In this document: piece by piece, positions 7,694 to 15,739 of the stretch
Numbering within the stretch: position 1 is the stretch's first letter
How the letters are laid out: the number at the start of each line of letters is the position of its first letter
Assembly: GCF_002776575.1 (NCBI RefSeq)
Contig: NZ_CP022548.1
Span: 759,001 to 823,000, forward strand
Direction: 5' to 3'
Origin: Sphingorhabdus sp. YGSMI21
Lineage (GTDB): Bacteria; Pseudomonadota; Alphaproteobacteria; Sphingomonadales; Sphingomonadaceae
Length of the DNA: 64,000 bases
The notes under the pieces: model-generated
Databases searched by the model: none
Seen by the model: only the letters and a program-made list of their open reading frames with translations
Told to the model about the DNA's origin: nothing
Translations under genes and position numbers: made by a program

Positions 7694-9313
7694 TCAGGCA
7701 AGACCGATTTCTGCGGCCGTCCAGCGCCGTGAATAGGCCGGATTTTCGGTATCACCGACCTCGTAAAAGGATTCGGTGAAGCCGCCATCATCATGCAGGG
7801 TGACCAGCGCATAACCGTTTTTCATCCGCGGAACATCGTCGGAAAATGCCGGATCGTGGCAATGGGCGTAATAATCGATATTGTCCTTCACCGCCGCATT
7901 CTCGAGGCCCCAAGCGGGACCAAAGGGCACAGCTCCGTGGCCACAGCAGCGGCTCTTGGTGACAGAAGTGGTGTCCTTGCCGACGATCATCCGGTCATAG
8001 ACGATCCCATTATGGACATGCCCCCAATACCATAAGGAAGGAGGCGAACCGATTGCCTTGCAGACCTGATCATAGAGGATATTGGTTTCTGCGGTGATCG
8101 TGTCGCACGGATTGTGGTGGGTCATGACCATGATCGGTCCCTGATGCCCTGCGCAGACATTCTCGATCATTTCGATTTGCTTGCGATGCCGGTCAATGAA
8201 GAGAAAGCCGTCGGTGCCAATCGCGCCTTCCATATACATTTTGATACCATTTCTGGTGTCCGAATAATAAGCCGAATCGAGCCCGAGCACCAGCCAGCTT
8301 TGGCCTTCTTTTCCATCGGTCGGCCGGATCGGATATTCCAGCGCAAAAACGCTCGCCCCGTTCTGCGCCGCGAAATATTCCGACTGGGTCAGCGCGGTAC
8401 CGAAAATGCCTTTGCCGGCGCCGTACATTTCGTGGTTGGAATTCAGCGTGAAATTACGCCCCTGGCCCTGATCCGGCCATAGGCTGACAAGATTGTCCAG
8501 CTCCTCGTGCGCAGAGTCCGGACCGAGTCGCGATTCCGCTGTCCCTGCATAATAGGTGTCACCCAGATGGATCAGATAGTCGGTCGGCTGCTTTTTGACA
8601 TCTTCGATGACCCGCATCGCAGGACTGGCCACAGAGGCGTTGTTCCTGCCCGTTTCCGCGTAATTGCCGCCGCCCCAATCGCCGATAATCCCCAGAACGG
8701 GTTCGGGATTGTCCGGCTTCTCCGGCCCCCGCGCTTTCGGTGACAACGCTATAGGCCTCAGTTCCGGATTGGGGAAAGGATGATAAATATCCGCAGGATG
8801 CACGAGGTTGAGGACATAGTTGAGCGTTGCGACCATCCATTTCGGGTCGAGCTGCTCGTAGCGCGCCAGTCCGAATATCGTGCCGTCATCGCCCACCAGT
8901 CCCGGGGATTTCGCCTGGGCCATCAGCTGCTGATATTCCTGCTCGCTCATTTCGATTGCGGCGAGATCCCTGGTCAAATATCGAAGTATATCGAACGCCA
9001 TCCGGTGCAGCTCGCTCTTCGCCAGCCATTCGGAAAACCAGGCGGGAGGGGAGGTCTCCCATTTGTTCAGCCAATGCACCATCAGCCCGAATTCCGTTTT
9101 CGATGTCAGGTGAAGATAGCCCAGTGGCGTAACCGGACTATCGATATTCTCCACGGCCTTGCGCAGATCAAGATGACAATCAGCAAGAAATGCAGAAAAT
9201 TTCTTCAATCGGACATAGGCTTCAGCATCTTCAGCATTATCAAATTTGTCTACTTTCAATTGACTTTGAAAGCTTTCAAGATGAGACATGAAATTGGTAT
9301 CTACGATGCTCAT
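7694..9313 (-). CDS. Calcineurin-like metallophosphoesterase with unassigned N-terminal half
   Basis: A 539-residue, apparently cytoplasmic protein (no signal peptide). Residues about 206-470 carry the dinuclear-metal phosphoesterase motifs in order: GDWGGG at 211-216, GDTYY at 251-255, NSNHE at 291-295, THHNP near 405 and GHVHNG near 440. The first 205 residues show no family I can name; they are mostly helical and Trp-rich. Substrate is unknown: this superfamily covers nucleotide, phospholipid and protein phosphatases. The gene ends 5 bp from the nhaA stop, convergently. Confidence 0.8.
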   Translation of the reverse strand: MSIVDTNFMSHLESFQSQLKVDKFDNAEDAEAYVRLKKFSAFLADCHLDLRKAVENIDSPVTPLGYLHLTSKTEFGLMVHWLNKWETSPPAWFSEWLAKSELHRMAFDILRYLTRDLAAIEMSEQEYQQLMAQAKSPGLVGDDGTIFGLARYEQLDPKWMVATLNYVLNLVHPADIYHPFPNPELRPIALSPKARGPEKPDNPEPVLGIIGDWGGGNYAETGRNNASVASPAMRVIEDVKKQPTDYLIHLGDTYYAGTAESRLGPDSAHEELDNLVSLWPDQGQGRNFTLNSNHEMYGAGKGIFGTALTQSEYFAAQNGASVFALEYPIRPTDGKEGQSWLVLGLDSAYYSDTRNGIKMYMEGAIGTDGFLFIDRHRKQIEMIENVCAGHQGPIMVMTHHNPCDTITAETNILYDQVCKAIGSPPSLWYWGHVHNGIVYDRMIVGKDTTSVTKSRCCGHGAVPFGPAWGLENAAVKDNIDYYAHCHDPAFSDDVPRMKNGYALVTLHDDGGFTESFYEVGDTENPAYSRRWTAAEIGLA

Positions 9314-11746: not shown

Positions 11747-12115
11747 CTAAGGGGCCTGATATTTGGCGATATAATGGTCCAGTACCGCCGGATTGAGCTT
11801 GTTCCGGAAAGAGCAGGCGATGCCCTGGTTGCCGTTGCGGACGACCGCGGCCTCGAGCGCGCCGAGCCCCGGCAATGTCAGCCAGCATAATGTACCGGGA
11901 TGCGCGCTCTGCAGGGCGTCGCATGTAAAGCCGGCGAGCGACATGGCAGTGACTTCCACCGCAAAGCTGCTGGAGCAGGAAAAGCGCATCTTGGCCGGAA
12001 TCGCAACCCGGTGCTGGGGCGCACTGCACTCTTCACCGGATGGGACGGCATAGGGCATGGCCGGCTGGGGGCTGACTGCGGAAATCGGTGATCTGTGAAC
12101 CAGTGAATCTGTCAT
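11747..12115 (-). CDS. Degenerate PilZ-domain protein
   Basis: A 122-residue protein whose residues about 30-118 fit the PilZ beta-barrel pattern: HRVAIPAKMRF, then VEVTAMSLAGFTCDAL, then PGTLCWLTLPGLGALEAAVV and GIACSFRNKLNPAVLDHYI. PilZ domains bind cyclic di-GMP through RxxxR and (D/N)xSxxG. Here only one Arg of the first motif is present (the residue at i+4 is Pro) and the second motif reads AMSLAG, with Ala in place of Asp or Asn. It may therefore not bind the nucleotide. Start ATG 12115; Met20 is an alternative. No chemotaxis or pilus gene is adjacent. Confidence 0.65.
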   Translation of the reverse strand: MTDSLVHRSPISAVSPQPAMPYAVPSGEECSAPQHRVAIPAKMRFSCSSSFAVEVTAMSLAGFTCDALQSAHPGTLCWLTLPGLGALEAAVVRNGNQGIACSFRNKLNPAVLDHYIAKYQAP

Positions 12116-12359
12116 GTCTGCTTCCTAAGCGTGGGCTTCGGCTTTGGCGGTGGCTCACCTGGTCAATGAAGAAACCGCGACAGAAGCTGTTTCGTCTTCC
12201 CGGGTAAATCCCCTCTTCCGAGCTTCGGTAAACAGCGGGCGGGGGAAATTTAACCATATTGCATTTCGACACAGGAGCGAACAATCACGCTTGCCGAAAT
12301 CGTCTCGGGACGCTAAGGCGCGCGAACCGGCTGTTTCGCAAGGGTGATACGGCCCGTGC

Positions 12360-12435
12360 AGGAGTGTAGCTCAGTTGGTAGAGCATCGGTCTCCAAAACC
12401 GAGGGCCCACGGTTCGAGTCCGTGCACTCCTGCCA
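12360..12435 (+). tRNA. tRNA-Trp (CCA)
   Basis: A complete 76-nt cloverleaf can be folded. The acceptor stem pairs 12360-12366 with 12425-12431, the anticodon loop CTCCAAA is 12391-12397 with anticodon CCA at 12393-12395, the T-arm contains GGTTCGAGTCC, the discriminator base is G 12432 and the terminal CCA is encoded at 12433-12435. In alphaproteobacteria this tRNA usually lies just upstream of secE; here secE is 3.4 kb away. Confidence 0.97.
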
Positions 12436-12463
12436 TTTTCCCCCTTCAACAACCGAAATCCTC

Positions 12464-12853
12464 ATGACCCAGTTTATCTCCGCCATCAGCCTGATTGTTC
12501 CCGATTATGATCAGGCTATCGCTTTCTATGTCGGCCTGATGGGTTTTGAACTGATCGAAGACACCGAGATTTCCGAGGACAAGCGCTGGGTGCTGGTGGC
12601 GCCGCCCGGAAGCACCGAAACGCGACTGCTGCTGGCCAAGGCGACCAACGAAGCGCAGGAGGAGATCATCGGCGAACAGGCCGGTGGCCGGGTATTCCTG
12701 TTTCTCGAAACCTATGATTTTGACGGCGATCTTGCGCTGATGGAGCGGGCCGGCATCGATATAATCGAGGAGCCGCGAGTCGAAAGCTACGGCAAAGTGG
12801 TGGTGTTTCGCGATCCGTTCGGCAACAAATGGGACCTGATCGAACGGCATTAA
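12464..12853 (+). CDS. VOC (glyoxalase/bleomycin-resistance-like) family protein
   Basis: A 129-residue vicinal-oxygen-chelate protein. The two beta-alpha-beta-beta-beta halves are visible: ISLIVPDYDQAIAFYVGLMG at residues 7-26 begins the first, and the C-terminal GKVVVFRDPFGNKWDLIE ends the second. This family includes lyases, dioxygenases and antibiotic-binding proteins, and the substrate cannot be told. The ATG is 28 nt after the 3' end of tRNA-Trp with no obvious ribosome site and no room for a promoter, so it is probably transcribed with the tRNA and freed by tRNA processing. It converges on the TetR gene with 3 bp between stops. Confidence 0.85.
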   Translation: MTQFISAISLIVPDYDQAIAFYVGLMGFELIEDTEISEDKRWVLVAPPGSTETRLLLAKATNEAQEEIIGEQAGGRVFLFLETYDFDGDLALMERAGIDIIEEPRVESYGKVVVFRDPFGNKWDLIERH

Positions 12854-12856
12854 GGC

Positions 12857-13465
12857 TTATCGCTCGATATCGAGTGCTCCGGCAATCATACCCCATATCT
12901 GGTGGGTCAGCTTGGCCGGGTCCGGCCTCGGCTCCATACCCATGGCGTGGATGATCCCACTGCGTATCGCACCGGTGATCGCTGCGCCGGCTATCGTCGG
13001 ATCGATATGGGAACCGATATCGCCGCGCCTGATGCCGAAATTGATATTGCGGATCGCCATTTCGACCATTTCTTCATGGCGGGCCGCTTCCACCGCCGCG
13101 ACCTGGTTGGTCCGGGCCATTTTCCCGAGGATGACCGGCGCCATCGGATCATTGTAGAGAAATTCTGCAGCGGCCATCAGCCGGCTTTTTTCCCGCACGC
13201 GCCAGGTGATATCCGGATCAATATACTGGTTCACCACATGATTGTAGCGATCGTAAAAGGCGTGGATGATCGCGCCCAGCATACCGGATTTTGAACCGAA
13301 ATAATGATAGGCGAGCCCGACGGACACACCGGCCTGCTCGGCCACCTGACCCATTTCAAGCTCTCCGTCGCCTTCGCGCAAGATCTTTTCCGCCGCCGCC
13401 AATATCCTGGCCGCGCGCATGATCTTGCGGTCCGAACTTTCCCTTGTCTTGCCTTGACCGGCCAC
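12857..13465 (-). CDS. TetR/AcrR family repressor
   Basis: A 202-residue TetR-family regulator. The helix-turn-helix occupies about residues 38-60 (MGQVAEQAGVSVGLAYHYFG, ending in the conserved YYHF-like segment), and the C-terminal helices form the ligand-binding dimer domain. It is divergent from phyH, and a perfect 42-bp palindrome lies in the 107-bp space between the two starts, so the likely role is ligand-responsive repression of phyH and the isomerase genes, and of itself. The ligand is unknown; a substrate or product of the cluster is the simplest guess. Confidence 0.88.
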   Translation of the reverse strand: MAGQGKTRESSDRKIMRAARILAAAEKILREGDGELEMGQVAEQAGVSVGLAYHYFGSKSGMLGAIIHAFYDRYNHVVNQYIDPDITWRVREKSRLMAAAEFLYNDPMAPVILGKMARTNQVAAVEAARHEEMVEMAIRNINFGIRRGDIGSHIDPTIAGAAITGAIRSGIIHAMGMEPRPDPAKLTHQIWGMIAGALDIER

Positions 13466-13497
13466 GCCCCGCCTTCCCTATTCGCTATCCCGTTCCA

Positions 13498-13539
13498 CTA
13501 GCGACTATTTGAATTGAATTCAATTCAAATAGTCGCTAG
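13498..13539. promoter_or_regulatory. 42-bp perfect palindrome, probable TetR operator
   Basis: Both arms are 21 nt (13498-13518 and 13519-13539) with no spacer and no mismatch; the centre is GAATTGAATTCAATTC. The core contains the short repeat TTGAATTGAATTCAATTCAA, in which half-sites themselves repeat, so two dimers could bind side by side. It lies 32 bp upstream of tetR's start and 33 bp upstream of phyH's start, an almost symmetrical position. TetR-family operators are typically 15-30 bp palindromes in exactly this place; this one is longer and perfect. Confidence 0.8.
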
Positions 13540-13572
13540 ACAGGCTCCATAAGCAAAGCACGGAGCGGATCG

Positions 13573-14454
13573 ATGACTATAGCGAGCGAGATCGAAACAG
13601 CGGCAGAAGATCTGAGCCGCTACTTGCATGGCCGCAGTTTAGACGATGCCTGGGACCAGTATCAGGAGGAAGGCTATGTAATCTTCCCCGATGTCCTGAG
13701 TCCCGAGCAGCTGGAACAGCAGCGCGCGGCGCTCAAACCCTGGATCGATGCCGATATCCGCGGCCGCAACAATTTCGAAGGTGACCAGTCCAATCGCATA
13801 TATGCTATGCTCGACAAGGATCCGGTCTTTGCCGACCTGATTTCCCATCCACTGCAACTGGCCTTTGCCGAGCGGGAACTGGGGAAAAGCTGTCTGCTCT
13901 ATGCCTGTCTGGCGATCAACCTGCATCCCGGCGAAACCGTCCAGCCCTGGCATTTCGATGACAGCCATTGCGGTCTGGCCCGGCCGCGCGATCCGCTCAG
14001 CCTGTCGACTTTCTGGTCGATCAGCGACACGACCGAGACCAATGGTGCCACCGAAATCATCCCCGGCAGCCACAAATGGGGCGCCGAACAGCCGGTGGGC
14101 GCCAATCGCGGCTCCGACTTCCAGACCGGTGTCATTGACAAGAAGACAGGTGCAGATGATGGCCATCCCGACATGATCAAGGCGACCATGCCAGCCGGTT
14201 CACTAATGATCGCCAAGGGGACCTTGTGGCATCGCGGCGGCGGCAACAGTTCGGACGACCAACGCCTGATCGTGACGCCGCAATTCTGCAAGGGATGGTG
14301 CCGTCCGCTGGAACAGCAATTGCTCGCGGTCTCTCCCGAAAAAGTTGCGCGCCTCCCGAAGCGGGTGCAGGAACTATTGGGTTACAATATCCACCCACCC
14401 TTCATGGGCTATGTTGACGGCATGCACCCGGGCAGGGTTTTGACGCAGATCTGA
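13573..14454 (+). CDS. Phytanoyl-CoA dioxygenase (PhyH) family protein
   Basis: A 293-residue Fe(II)/2-oxoglutarate-dependent oxygenase of the PhyH family. The iron ligands are seen as the HxD motif in WHFDDSHC at about residues 129-136 and a distal His in KGTLWHRGGGN at about 215-225; a 2-oxoglutarate-binding Arg is likely in SDDQRLIVTP. It would hydroxylate an unactivated carbon of its substrate. The family covers fatty acyl-CoAs, amino acids and small metabolites, so the substrate is open. It is the first gene of a three-gene unit with two kappa-class isomerase-like proteins, divergent from the TetR gene. Confidence 0.88.
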   Translation: MTIASEIETAAEDLSRYLHGRSLDDAWDQYQEEGYVIFPDVLSPEQLEQQRAALKPWIDADIRGRNNFEGDQSNRIYAMLDKDPVFADLISHPLQLAFAERELGKSCLLYACLAINLHPGETVQPWHFDDSHCGLARPRDPLSLSTFWSISDTTETNGATEIIPGSHKWGAEQPVGANRGSDFQTGVIDKKTGADDGHPDMIKATMPAGSLMIAKGTLWHRGGGNSSDDQRLIVTPQFCKGWCRPLEQQLLAVSPEKVARLPKRVQELLGYNIHPPFMGYVDGMHPGRVLTQI

Positions 14455-14477
14455 ACTGCCCTCGAAGGGAGACCATT

Positions 14478-15170
14478 ATGAAAGCCCTGAAAAGCGACGC
14501 GCCACTGATCGTCTATGTCGACATCAAGAGTCCCTATGCTTTTGTGGCGATCCGGCCGACGTTGGCACTGGAAAAAGCGCTCGGCATGCGTTTCGACTGG
14601 CGGCCGCTGACGCTCGATATCCCCAGCTATCTGGGGTCGGCGCGTAAAAGCGGGGGCAAGGTCGTCGAAAGCACCCGCAGCGCCAGCCAGTGGGTGGGCA
14701 TTAAATATGGCTATCGCGATGCCCGCCGCTATGCCGAGCGTCAGGGCCTGATGCTCAAAGGCACCGAGAAAATCTGGGACTCGTCGATCGCCAATATCGC
14801 TATATCCTGGGCGATGCAGACGGACCGTGACCGCTTGGGTGACTATTTTGAAGCGGTCTATCCACCCTTCTGGCGGCGGGAGCTTGATATCGAGGATGTT
14901 GCGGTGGTCGAGGCCTGTCTGGAACAGGCCGGTATCGACTCGACCGGCTTTGCGGCCTTCGTCAACGGCGAGGGTCGCGCGCAGCATGACGCGCTGCAAG
15001 CGCAGCTTCACCCGAGTGGCATCTACGGTGTCCCGACCTATGTCTTTGACGGCACCATCCTGTTTGGCCGTGAACATCTCCCCTATGTCCGCTGGCACCT
15101 GCAGGGCCGCAAAGGTCCGGCGCCCGACATCGCTTACGAAATTGACGGCGCGGAGGCATTGCCATGCTGA
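14478..15170 (+). CDS. 2-hydroxychromene-2-carboxylate isomerase-like (GST-kappa/DsbA fold) protein
   Basis: A 230-residue thioredoxin-fold protein of the DsbA/GST-kappa group. The N-terminal YVDIKSPYAFVAIRPTL carries a Ser-Pro pair where DsbA has CxxC, as in 2-hydroxychromene-2-carboxylate isomerases, which use glutathione during naphthalene-type catabolism. The C-terminal GVPTYVFDGTILFGREHLP is the conserved substrate-side segment. Ribosome site GAAGGGAGA precedes the ATG. The stop overlaps the start of the following paralogue by seven bases, so the pair is probably made together and may form a heterodimer (inference). True substrate unknown. Confidence 0.85.
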   Translation: MKALKSDAPLIVYVDIKSPYAFVAIRPTLALEKALGMRFDWRPLTLDIPSYLGSARKSGGKVVESTRSASQWVGIKYGYRDARRYAERQGLMLKGTEKIWDSSIANIAISWAMQTDRDRLGDYFEAVYPPFWRRELDIEDVAVVEACLEQAGIDSTGFAAFVNGEGRAQHDALQAQLHPSGIYGVPTYVFDGTILFGREHLPYVRWHLQGRKGPAPDIAYEIDGAEALPC

Positions 15171-15739
15171 CCGTCTTCATCGATTTCAAATCGCCCGCGT
15201 CCTTCCTTGCACTCGAACCGACACTGGCTCTGGCGCGCGAAACCGGCGTTCCTGTCGACTGGCTTCCCTTCTCGGTCCGCCCCTTTGTGATCCCCGAAGA
15301 ACAGGCCGACGAGACGGTCGGCGAGCGCCATCGCCGCGTCCGCGCCATCGCCCGGCGCGACACCCATTTGCATTATGCTGCGGTTCAGGGGCGGGAGATG
15401 CATTTCGCTCAGGCTCCGGCGGGTAGCGGTGCCGCTCTTGCCGCCTTGGCCGGGCTGGACGGTGACCCGGTGCCGTTTCTCCGCGCCGCCTTTGATGCCT
15501 ATTGGACGGATCAGGCGGACCTTGATGACGAGGCGGTGGTCGCGGGCCTGTTGTCAGATGTGAACCTTGCTCTTCCCGACATGCAGTCGGCCCGTGAAAC
15601 GCTGGATTCCATCCGCGCCGAGGCAGAAGAATCCGGCATTTTCGAATCGCCTTCCTATGTCATTGCAGACCAGCTATTTGTCGGCCGCGAGCATCTCCCG
15701 TGGATCGGCTCGCTGATCAAAGCGGCGACCGTCCGGTAA
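15164..15739 (+). CDS. Second 2-hydroxychromene-2-carboxylate isomerase-like protein
   Basis: A 191-residue paralogue of the preceding gene, with FIDFKSPASFLALEPTLAL at residues 5-23 (again Ser-Pro, no CxxC) and SPSYVIADQLFVGREHLPWI near the C-terminus. It lacks about 40 residues relative to the first copy. The ATG lies inside the last codons of the upstream gene, indicating translational coupling. Two divergent, overlapping members of this family after a PhyH gene suggest one pathway with two glutathione-type isomerisation steps or a heteromeric enzyme. It ends 145 bp before secE. Confidence 0.83.
   Translation: MLTVFIDFKSPASFLALEPTLALARETGVPVDWLPFSVRPFVIPEEQADETVGERHRRVRAIARRDTHLHYAAVQGREMHFAQAPAGSGAALAALAGLDGDPVPFLRAAFDAYWTDQADLDDEAVVAGLLSDVNLALPDMQSARETLDSIRAEAEESGIFESPSYVIADQLFVGREHLPWIGSLIKAATVR

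Follow-up and report, generated by a model that had tools for sequence, protein, structure and literature searches.

A perfect palindrome of 42 bp without any spacer (13498-13539) was found between divergent tetR and PhyH-family genes in a 64,000-nt stretch of Sphingorhabdus sp. YGSMI21 DNA (the window). Its two arms (13498-13518 and 13519-13539), each of 21 nt, are 100% complementary, 0 nt apart and centred on GAATTC. These properties, listed by a first-pass annotation, were all recovered upon recomputation, as was the nearly midway position of the element, 32 bp from the GTG of tetR (13465) and 33 bp from the ATG of phyH (13573), with start codons taken from a mechanical ORF list. The annotation was also right about the repetition of a half-site in the inner part, since the core reads TTGAA twice and then TTCAA twice. 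The features of the locus are the following.

12857..13465, minus strand: tetR, 202 aa, TetR_N domain, recognition segment SVGLAYHYFGSK
13498..13539, no strand: perfect spacer-free palindrome, 42 bp
13498..13508, no strand: left outer arm, letters variable among species and mirroring the right arm in the main clade, with invariant TA at 13499-13500
13509..13528, no strand: 20-bp core TTGAATTGAATTCAATTCAA, made of four TTGAA/TTCAA pentamers and likely the operator of TetR, invariant across the TetR-bearing genomes of the two genera
13529..13539, no strand: right outer arm, letters variable among species and mirroring the left arm in the main clade, with invariant TA at 13537-13538
13573..14454, plus strand: phyH-like gene, 293 aa, PhyH Pfam 1e-25, with 2-oxoglutarate/Fe(II) dioxygenase relatives
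14478..15170, plus strand: gene of a DsbA-fold protein downstream of phyH, there in some, not all, relatives
15164..15739, plus strand: gene of a second DsbA-fold protein

The tetR product contains the TetR_N helix-turn-helix (PF00440, 37.2 bits for a cut-off of 24, Pfam E 2.6e-9), and the solved relatives of the PhyH protein are mostly named 2-oxoglutarate/Fe(II) dioxygenases of natural-product pathways. Beyond tetR, a glyoxalase-fold relative is encoded in 13 of 18 genus-group loci, some of the others ending too early to tell; this set of 18 was kept apart from the two second-genus and eight distant loci of the comparison. In some loci, phyH is followed by two DsbA-fold genes (for example L046, L047, L048, L067 and L078), and in L022, L041, L054, L061 and L076 no DsbA match was found between phyH and nusG. 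In G198, the palindrome adjoins a distant relative of the Rieske oxygenase of the window, a phyH relative being located beyond. Elsewhere in the window, a 539-aa open frame (7694-9313) matched neither a Pfam nor an NCBIfam family at E 0.001.

The length and perfection of the element are far beyond chance. In random letters, about 64000 x 4^-21 such palindromes are expected (near 1e-8), and the second-longest perfect spacer-free palindrome within the window measures 16 bp. When 400 kb were sampled from each of the G000 and G008 genomes, the maxima were 20 and 22 bp; six other palindromes of 20-22 bp were present in these 800 kb, none of them grown long, together with short-loop inverted repeats having arms of up to 27 nt. 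An assembly artefact is unlikely, because the arms differ among genomes and are also perfect in assemblies of 1-5 contigs (G000, G006, G008, G009 and G019). A dispersed repeat was discarded as well, because the 4.06 Mb genome has a single copy of the core even when 3 mismatches are tolerated. Separately, the 400 kb of G000 contain three inverted repeats that are almost identical, with 25-nt arms (TCGTCATCCTGAACTTGTTTCAGGA) around a variable loop of 10 nt; they are perhaps copies of a dispersed palindromic repeat:

L096:11118-11177, L096:13513-13572 and L098:15944-16003: inverted repeats with TCGTCATCCTGAACTTGTTTCAGGA arms

The first-pass annotation had advised looking for the palindrome beside orthologous tetR-phyH pairs in related genomes, and the 20-bp core is indeed conserved there, so that the sequence-based part of its refuting condition did not apply. 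A TetR orthologue (E <= 1e-20) is present in 19 of the 32 genus genomes; the core, searched with a tolerance of up to 2 mismatches, was found in exactly these 19, always with 0 mismatches, and in none of the 13 others. When 298 genomes of the family were drawn, TetR was detected in 7 of them, from two genera (E <= 1e-30). Of the three second-genus genomes, two possess TetR, and both carry the core. Six phyH relatives from the family draw (57-73% identity) showed neither the core nor a TetR match within 1.5 kb on each side, and perfect palindromes of at least 16 bp were also absent from these same regions.

Among 385 genomes drawn from the class, 3 (G000 being one of them) showed the core with at most 1 mismatch, as did 2 of 18 in one family. 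Distant lineages were thus dropped as a second test set, core-bearing genomes being too few. Copies of the core with one mismatch were noted at L122:1501-1520 and in L124, two genomes of one distant family, the outer arms of L122 being asymmetric. A scan of genome contigs provided 46 stretches with the exact core, 16 belonging to this group (L051 and L057 included) and 30 to others. A TetR relative was located nearby in 24 of these 30 stretches, the remaining 6 having no TetR match. Alignment of the 24 distant proteins and that of L051 with the G000 TetR showed that the segment around SVGLAYH-F-SK is strongly conserved in 24 of the 25; the L045 TetR is unaligned at this segment. As the distant TetRs were found via the core, these data show linkage rather than testing specificity. 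At L079:7782-7801 (Herbivorax), the core is included in a 56-bp perfect palindrome, TetR matches being absent from the locus, and this copy looks unrelated. The 20-bp core is likely the operator of the adjacent TetR, which would bind there, and the possible loading of two TetR dimers on these 20 bp can be envisaged.

For the analysis of the outer arms, positions were numbered k1, k2 and so on outward from the core. The symmetric set comprised 12 complete genus rows (clade A) and two second-genus rows, giving 14 rows. Two sequences with contig ends in or just beside the palindrome were excluded: G014, whose contig ends within it, from the symmetry counts, and L057, a second core of the G020 assembly cut by a contig end and probably belonging to a second strain, from the counts. 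The G020 metagenome assembly contains two versions of the palindrome region (L057:1031-1050 and L003), one of them resembling G002, and this bin probably represents two strains.

In the 14 rows, the perfect palindromes measure 40, 40, 40, 42, 44, 44, 44, 44, 46, 46, 48, 48, 50 and 56 bp. The k1-8 spacers are of 12 kinds, for instance ATAGTCGC, ATATTGGG (three rows), ATATTAAG, ATGGCAGT and AGAATGGC, and in spite of this diversity all 112 of the 112 cells at k1-8 are symmetric (70/70 at k4-8). Further out, symmetric cells numbered 32/56 at k11-14, 16/84 at k15-20 and 86/280 at k21-40. In clade A, where symmetry was seen in 12 of 12 rows at each of the eight positions, Fitch counts indicated 23 changes per arm at k1-8, equal position by position; these counts rest on a tree in which 8 of 19 inner branches are weak, and which was built without the tetR of G018 and G005 and without the phyH of G014 and G198. 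Considered as a structure, the 14 rows have 280 of 280 cells paired, with 38 two-sided changes, no one-sided change, no broken pair and no G-T pair. Thus, the arms are more alike than independent mutation allows, and their changes are common to both. The covariation score was 0.382, compared with 0.075 (sd 0.019) for shuffles, none of the 500 shuffles reaching 0.382; related sequences can exceed such shuffles, and the slid controls attained at most 0.065. In addition, the TA at k9-10 is shared on each side by every one of the 21 rows, symmetric (14/14) or asymmetric (7/7).

The arms nevertheless change rapidly. At k4-8, 21 changes were counted over 5 positions (4.2 each), against 27 changes over 6 positions (4.5 each) at k15-20 on either side, in ungapped comparisons where indels may inflate the flank change. 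The mean divergence at k3-8 was 0.56, versus 0.37 at 4-fold sites. Between G002 and G022, which are separated by a 4-fold divergence of 13/216, the same two adjacent bases differ in both arms; their flanks are the same as far as k39 (left) and k45 (right), and zero differences were observed over TetR residues 20-75.

The palindrome of G012 extends to k18, and its k11-18 letters were compared with those of its relatives over these eight positions. They match the right arms of G006 and G015 at 6/8 each, of G020 and G002 at 4/8 each and of G008 at 3/8; with left arms, the agreement was 4/8 for G014, G015, G020 and G008, 3/8 for G006 and 2/8 for G002. From k19, each side of G012 goes with its own kind, the left arm (k19-40) matching the left arms of G014 (17/22) and G015 (16/22) and the right arm matching the right arm of G006 (20/22). 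This single case, over few positions, suggests that copying went from the right flank to the left.

Seven close relatives (G005, G017, G025, G018, G029, G004 and L051) possess the core and TetR, with palindromes of just 20-26 bp. Their arms behave like shuffles (covariation 0.064 vs 0.074). These rows do not form a single clade, G005 branching with the symmetric second genus (support 83/84), so that the tree implies at least two gains or losses of the symmetric state. Among the 24 distant TetR-linked cores, five extend to 30-40 bp (L036, L037, L038, L050 and L069) with unrelated arm letters, the chance of five further pairs being about 0.001 per locus, and 19 remain at 20-24 bp. Homogenisation of the arms is therefore not automatic for a 20-bp core, as neither the seven close relatives nor 19 of the 24 distant copies show it. 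The earlier equation of a longer site with a stronger operator does not agree with the asymmetric arms of the former or with the barely extended palindromes of the latter.

On both strands, the arrangement of TTGAAT, 17 bp and the invariant TA suggests divergent promoters overlapping the palindrome:

13514..13542, plus strand: candidate phyH promoter, TTGAAT (13514-13519), 17 bp, TAGACA (13537-13542), placed by the invariant TA spacing
13495..13523, minus strand: candidate tetR promoter, mirror image of the former, TTGAAT, 17 bp, TAGTGG, placed in the same manner

The hexamers following the TA are variable. As a scan of 13380-13660 for the E. coli-type consensus revealed no promoter, this placement relies on the constant distance between TTGAAT and the invariant TA.

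Taken together, we consider with a probability of about 0.6 that the core is a TetR operator whose outer arms are homogenised by template switching, one arm being copied onto the other. The operator would correspond to the central 20 bp, between the divergent tetR and phyH promoters, which it probably overlaps. The perfect, AT-rich core would let a single strand fold back while it is being replicated, and the polymerase would then synthesise one outer arm by reading the other, a template-switch mutation also termed quasipalindrome correction and reportedly described by Ripley in 1982 and by Dutra and Lovett in 2006. A fresh mutation in one arm would be either erased or transferred to the opposite arm. 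In this way, the outer arms could change about as fast as the flanks while remaining mirror images, and could extend outward. If one-sided changes were harmless, asymmetric arms would be expected, and if they were harmful, change should be slow; copying would give speed and symmetry at once.

E. coli SbcCD acts on long palindromes, and the absence of SbcD may make hairpins tolerable. An SbcD above the family cut-off was found in 1 of the 32 genus genomes (G007, which has no TetR), with weaker matches in five others, G000 included; in the genome of the window, the weak match (1.4e-12, below the cut-off) is on the second contig. Loss of SbcD was rejected as the cause of the split between symmetric and asymmetric arms: no asymmetric genus member has an above-cut-off match either, and since such a match is missing in symmetric and asymmetric members alike, SbcD loss does not explain their difference.

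The main rival holds that pairing itself is selected, a cruciform or single-strand hairpin tuning the divergent promoters with supercoiling, so that a change in one arm needs compensation in the other. Perfect pairing in 14 rows with zero one-sided changes would agree with such selection, as would the AT-rich centre and the stable single-strand DNA hairpin of the palindrome (-19.9 kcal/mol, z -9.98). However, compensation via a harmful intermediate should usually be slower than neutral change, and the arm rate is about the flank rate, even if a very large population could also yield paired changes this fast. Moreover, seven relatives retain the core, TetR and phyH without pairing, and the extent of pairing varies from 40 to 56 bp, so that we regard this explanation as unlikely. 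If true, the palindrome would be a structure-only DNA element in which letters turn over and pairing is enforced, a DNA counterpart of the covarying RNA stem. Covariation usually signals RNA structure, and an RNA hairpin in a 5' leader, or a bidirectional terminator, might likewise hold the arms paired. The probability of this is very low: G-U pairs number 0 among the 280 cells, no terminator-like site was found in 13380-13660, and an Rfam scan of 12000-15500 returned a tRNA (12360-12432) as its sole match, with none at the palindrome. An RNA element or terminator was rejected on these grounds. Furthermore, if the invariant TA belongs to a -10 element, the palindrome would be upstream of both transcripts.

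Two other readings were weighed. The whole palindrome might be a long TetR operator, its outer half-sites coevolving with TetR specificity and perhaps receiving two cooperative dimers; a dimer would read both arms alike, and half-sites are repeated in the core. This extends the first-pass claim that length and perfection suggest a strong, possibly cooperative switch. That claim was not supported, as sequence conservation is limited to the central 20 bp and the outer 22 bp vary under identical TetR DNA-binding segments. TetR residues 48-59 (SVGLAYHYFGSK) are identical across all 22 aligned orthologues, and G000, G020 and G011 have three different spacers under identical residues 37-64. Conversely, spacer ATATTGGG is common to G002, G008 and G012, whose helix-turn-helix sequences differ. 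Coevolution with TetR specificity was consequently rejected, and given also the asymmetric arms of seven relatives, a long operator appears improbable. The other reading, quite improbable too, is that both genes need equal promoters and the whole unit is held symmetric, in line with the TA found on both sides 17 bp from TTGAAT. However, a promoter should have no need for the exact mirroring of its variable spacer letters, seven relatives have the TA on both sides with unrelated spacers, and in L036 and L037 the divergent gene is absent from the simple ORF list.

A long perfect operator invites a reading in terms of strong or cooperative binding. Here, the extra perfection goes without sequence conservation and may stem from DNA copying. 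Covariation is a standard argument for selected structure, and a palindrome with complete covariation and flank-like rates, together with relatives lacking this covariation, offers a natural test of the amount of covariation that copying alone can produce. As many species have varied arms around one fixed core, the copying question can be addressed in a reporter.

In a small literature search, nothing relevant to the core motif with TetR, or to tetR-phyH in sphingomonads, was present among the matches listed; similarly, lockstep arms in a bacterial operator were undescribed in the titles and abstract openings of the matches listed, which does not prove their absence. The kind of process is already known, and within this limited search, a probable bacterial operator whose arms evolve together throughout a genus seems to be new.

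TetR and QacR exemplify TetR-family operators between divergent genes. The present palindrome resembles them in that a tetR-type gene and a target gene diverge from it, and differs by a sequence conservation limited to 20 of the 42 bp.

As for the arms, template switching that perfects inverted repeats by copying one arm from the other is established in E. coli (PMC7202029), and template switching is proposed in mitochondrial palindromes (PMC6649704). The outcome here is like that of quasipalindrome correction as presented in the former, where arms are perfected by copying one from the other; unlike it, the data are between-species differences around a fixed regulatory core, not reporter events, and copying is proposed from this outcome. 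Template switching has also been proposed to create and maintain RNA hairpins and stems (PMC8794818), where, as proposed here, it would explain paired changes without slow compensation; that work deals with RNA genes, whereas our palindrome has no apparent RNA role and no G-U pair. Finally, homogenisation of inverted-repeat arms by template switching was proposed in yeast genes (PMC8604942). There too, the homogenised arms are short, with clustered changes in the yeast repeats; these repeats lie in coding sequences of yeast strains, whereas the present arms surround a probable bacterial operator and were compared across species.
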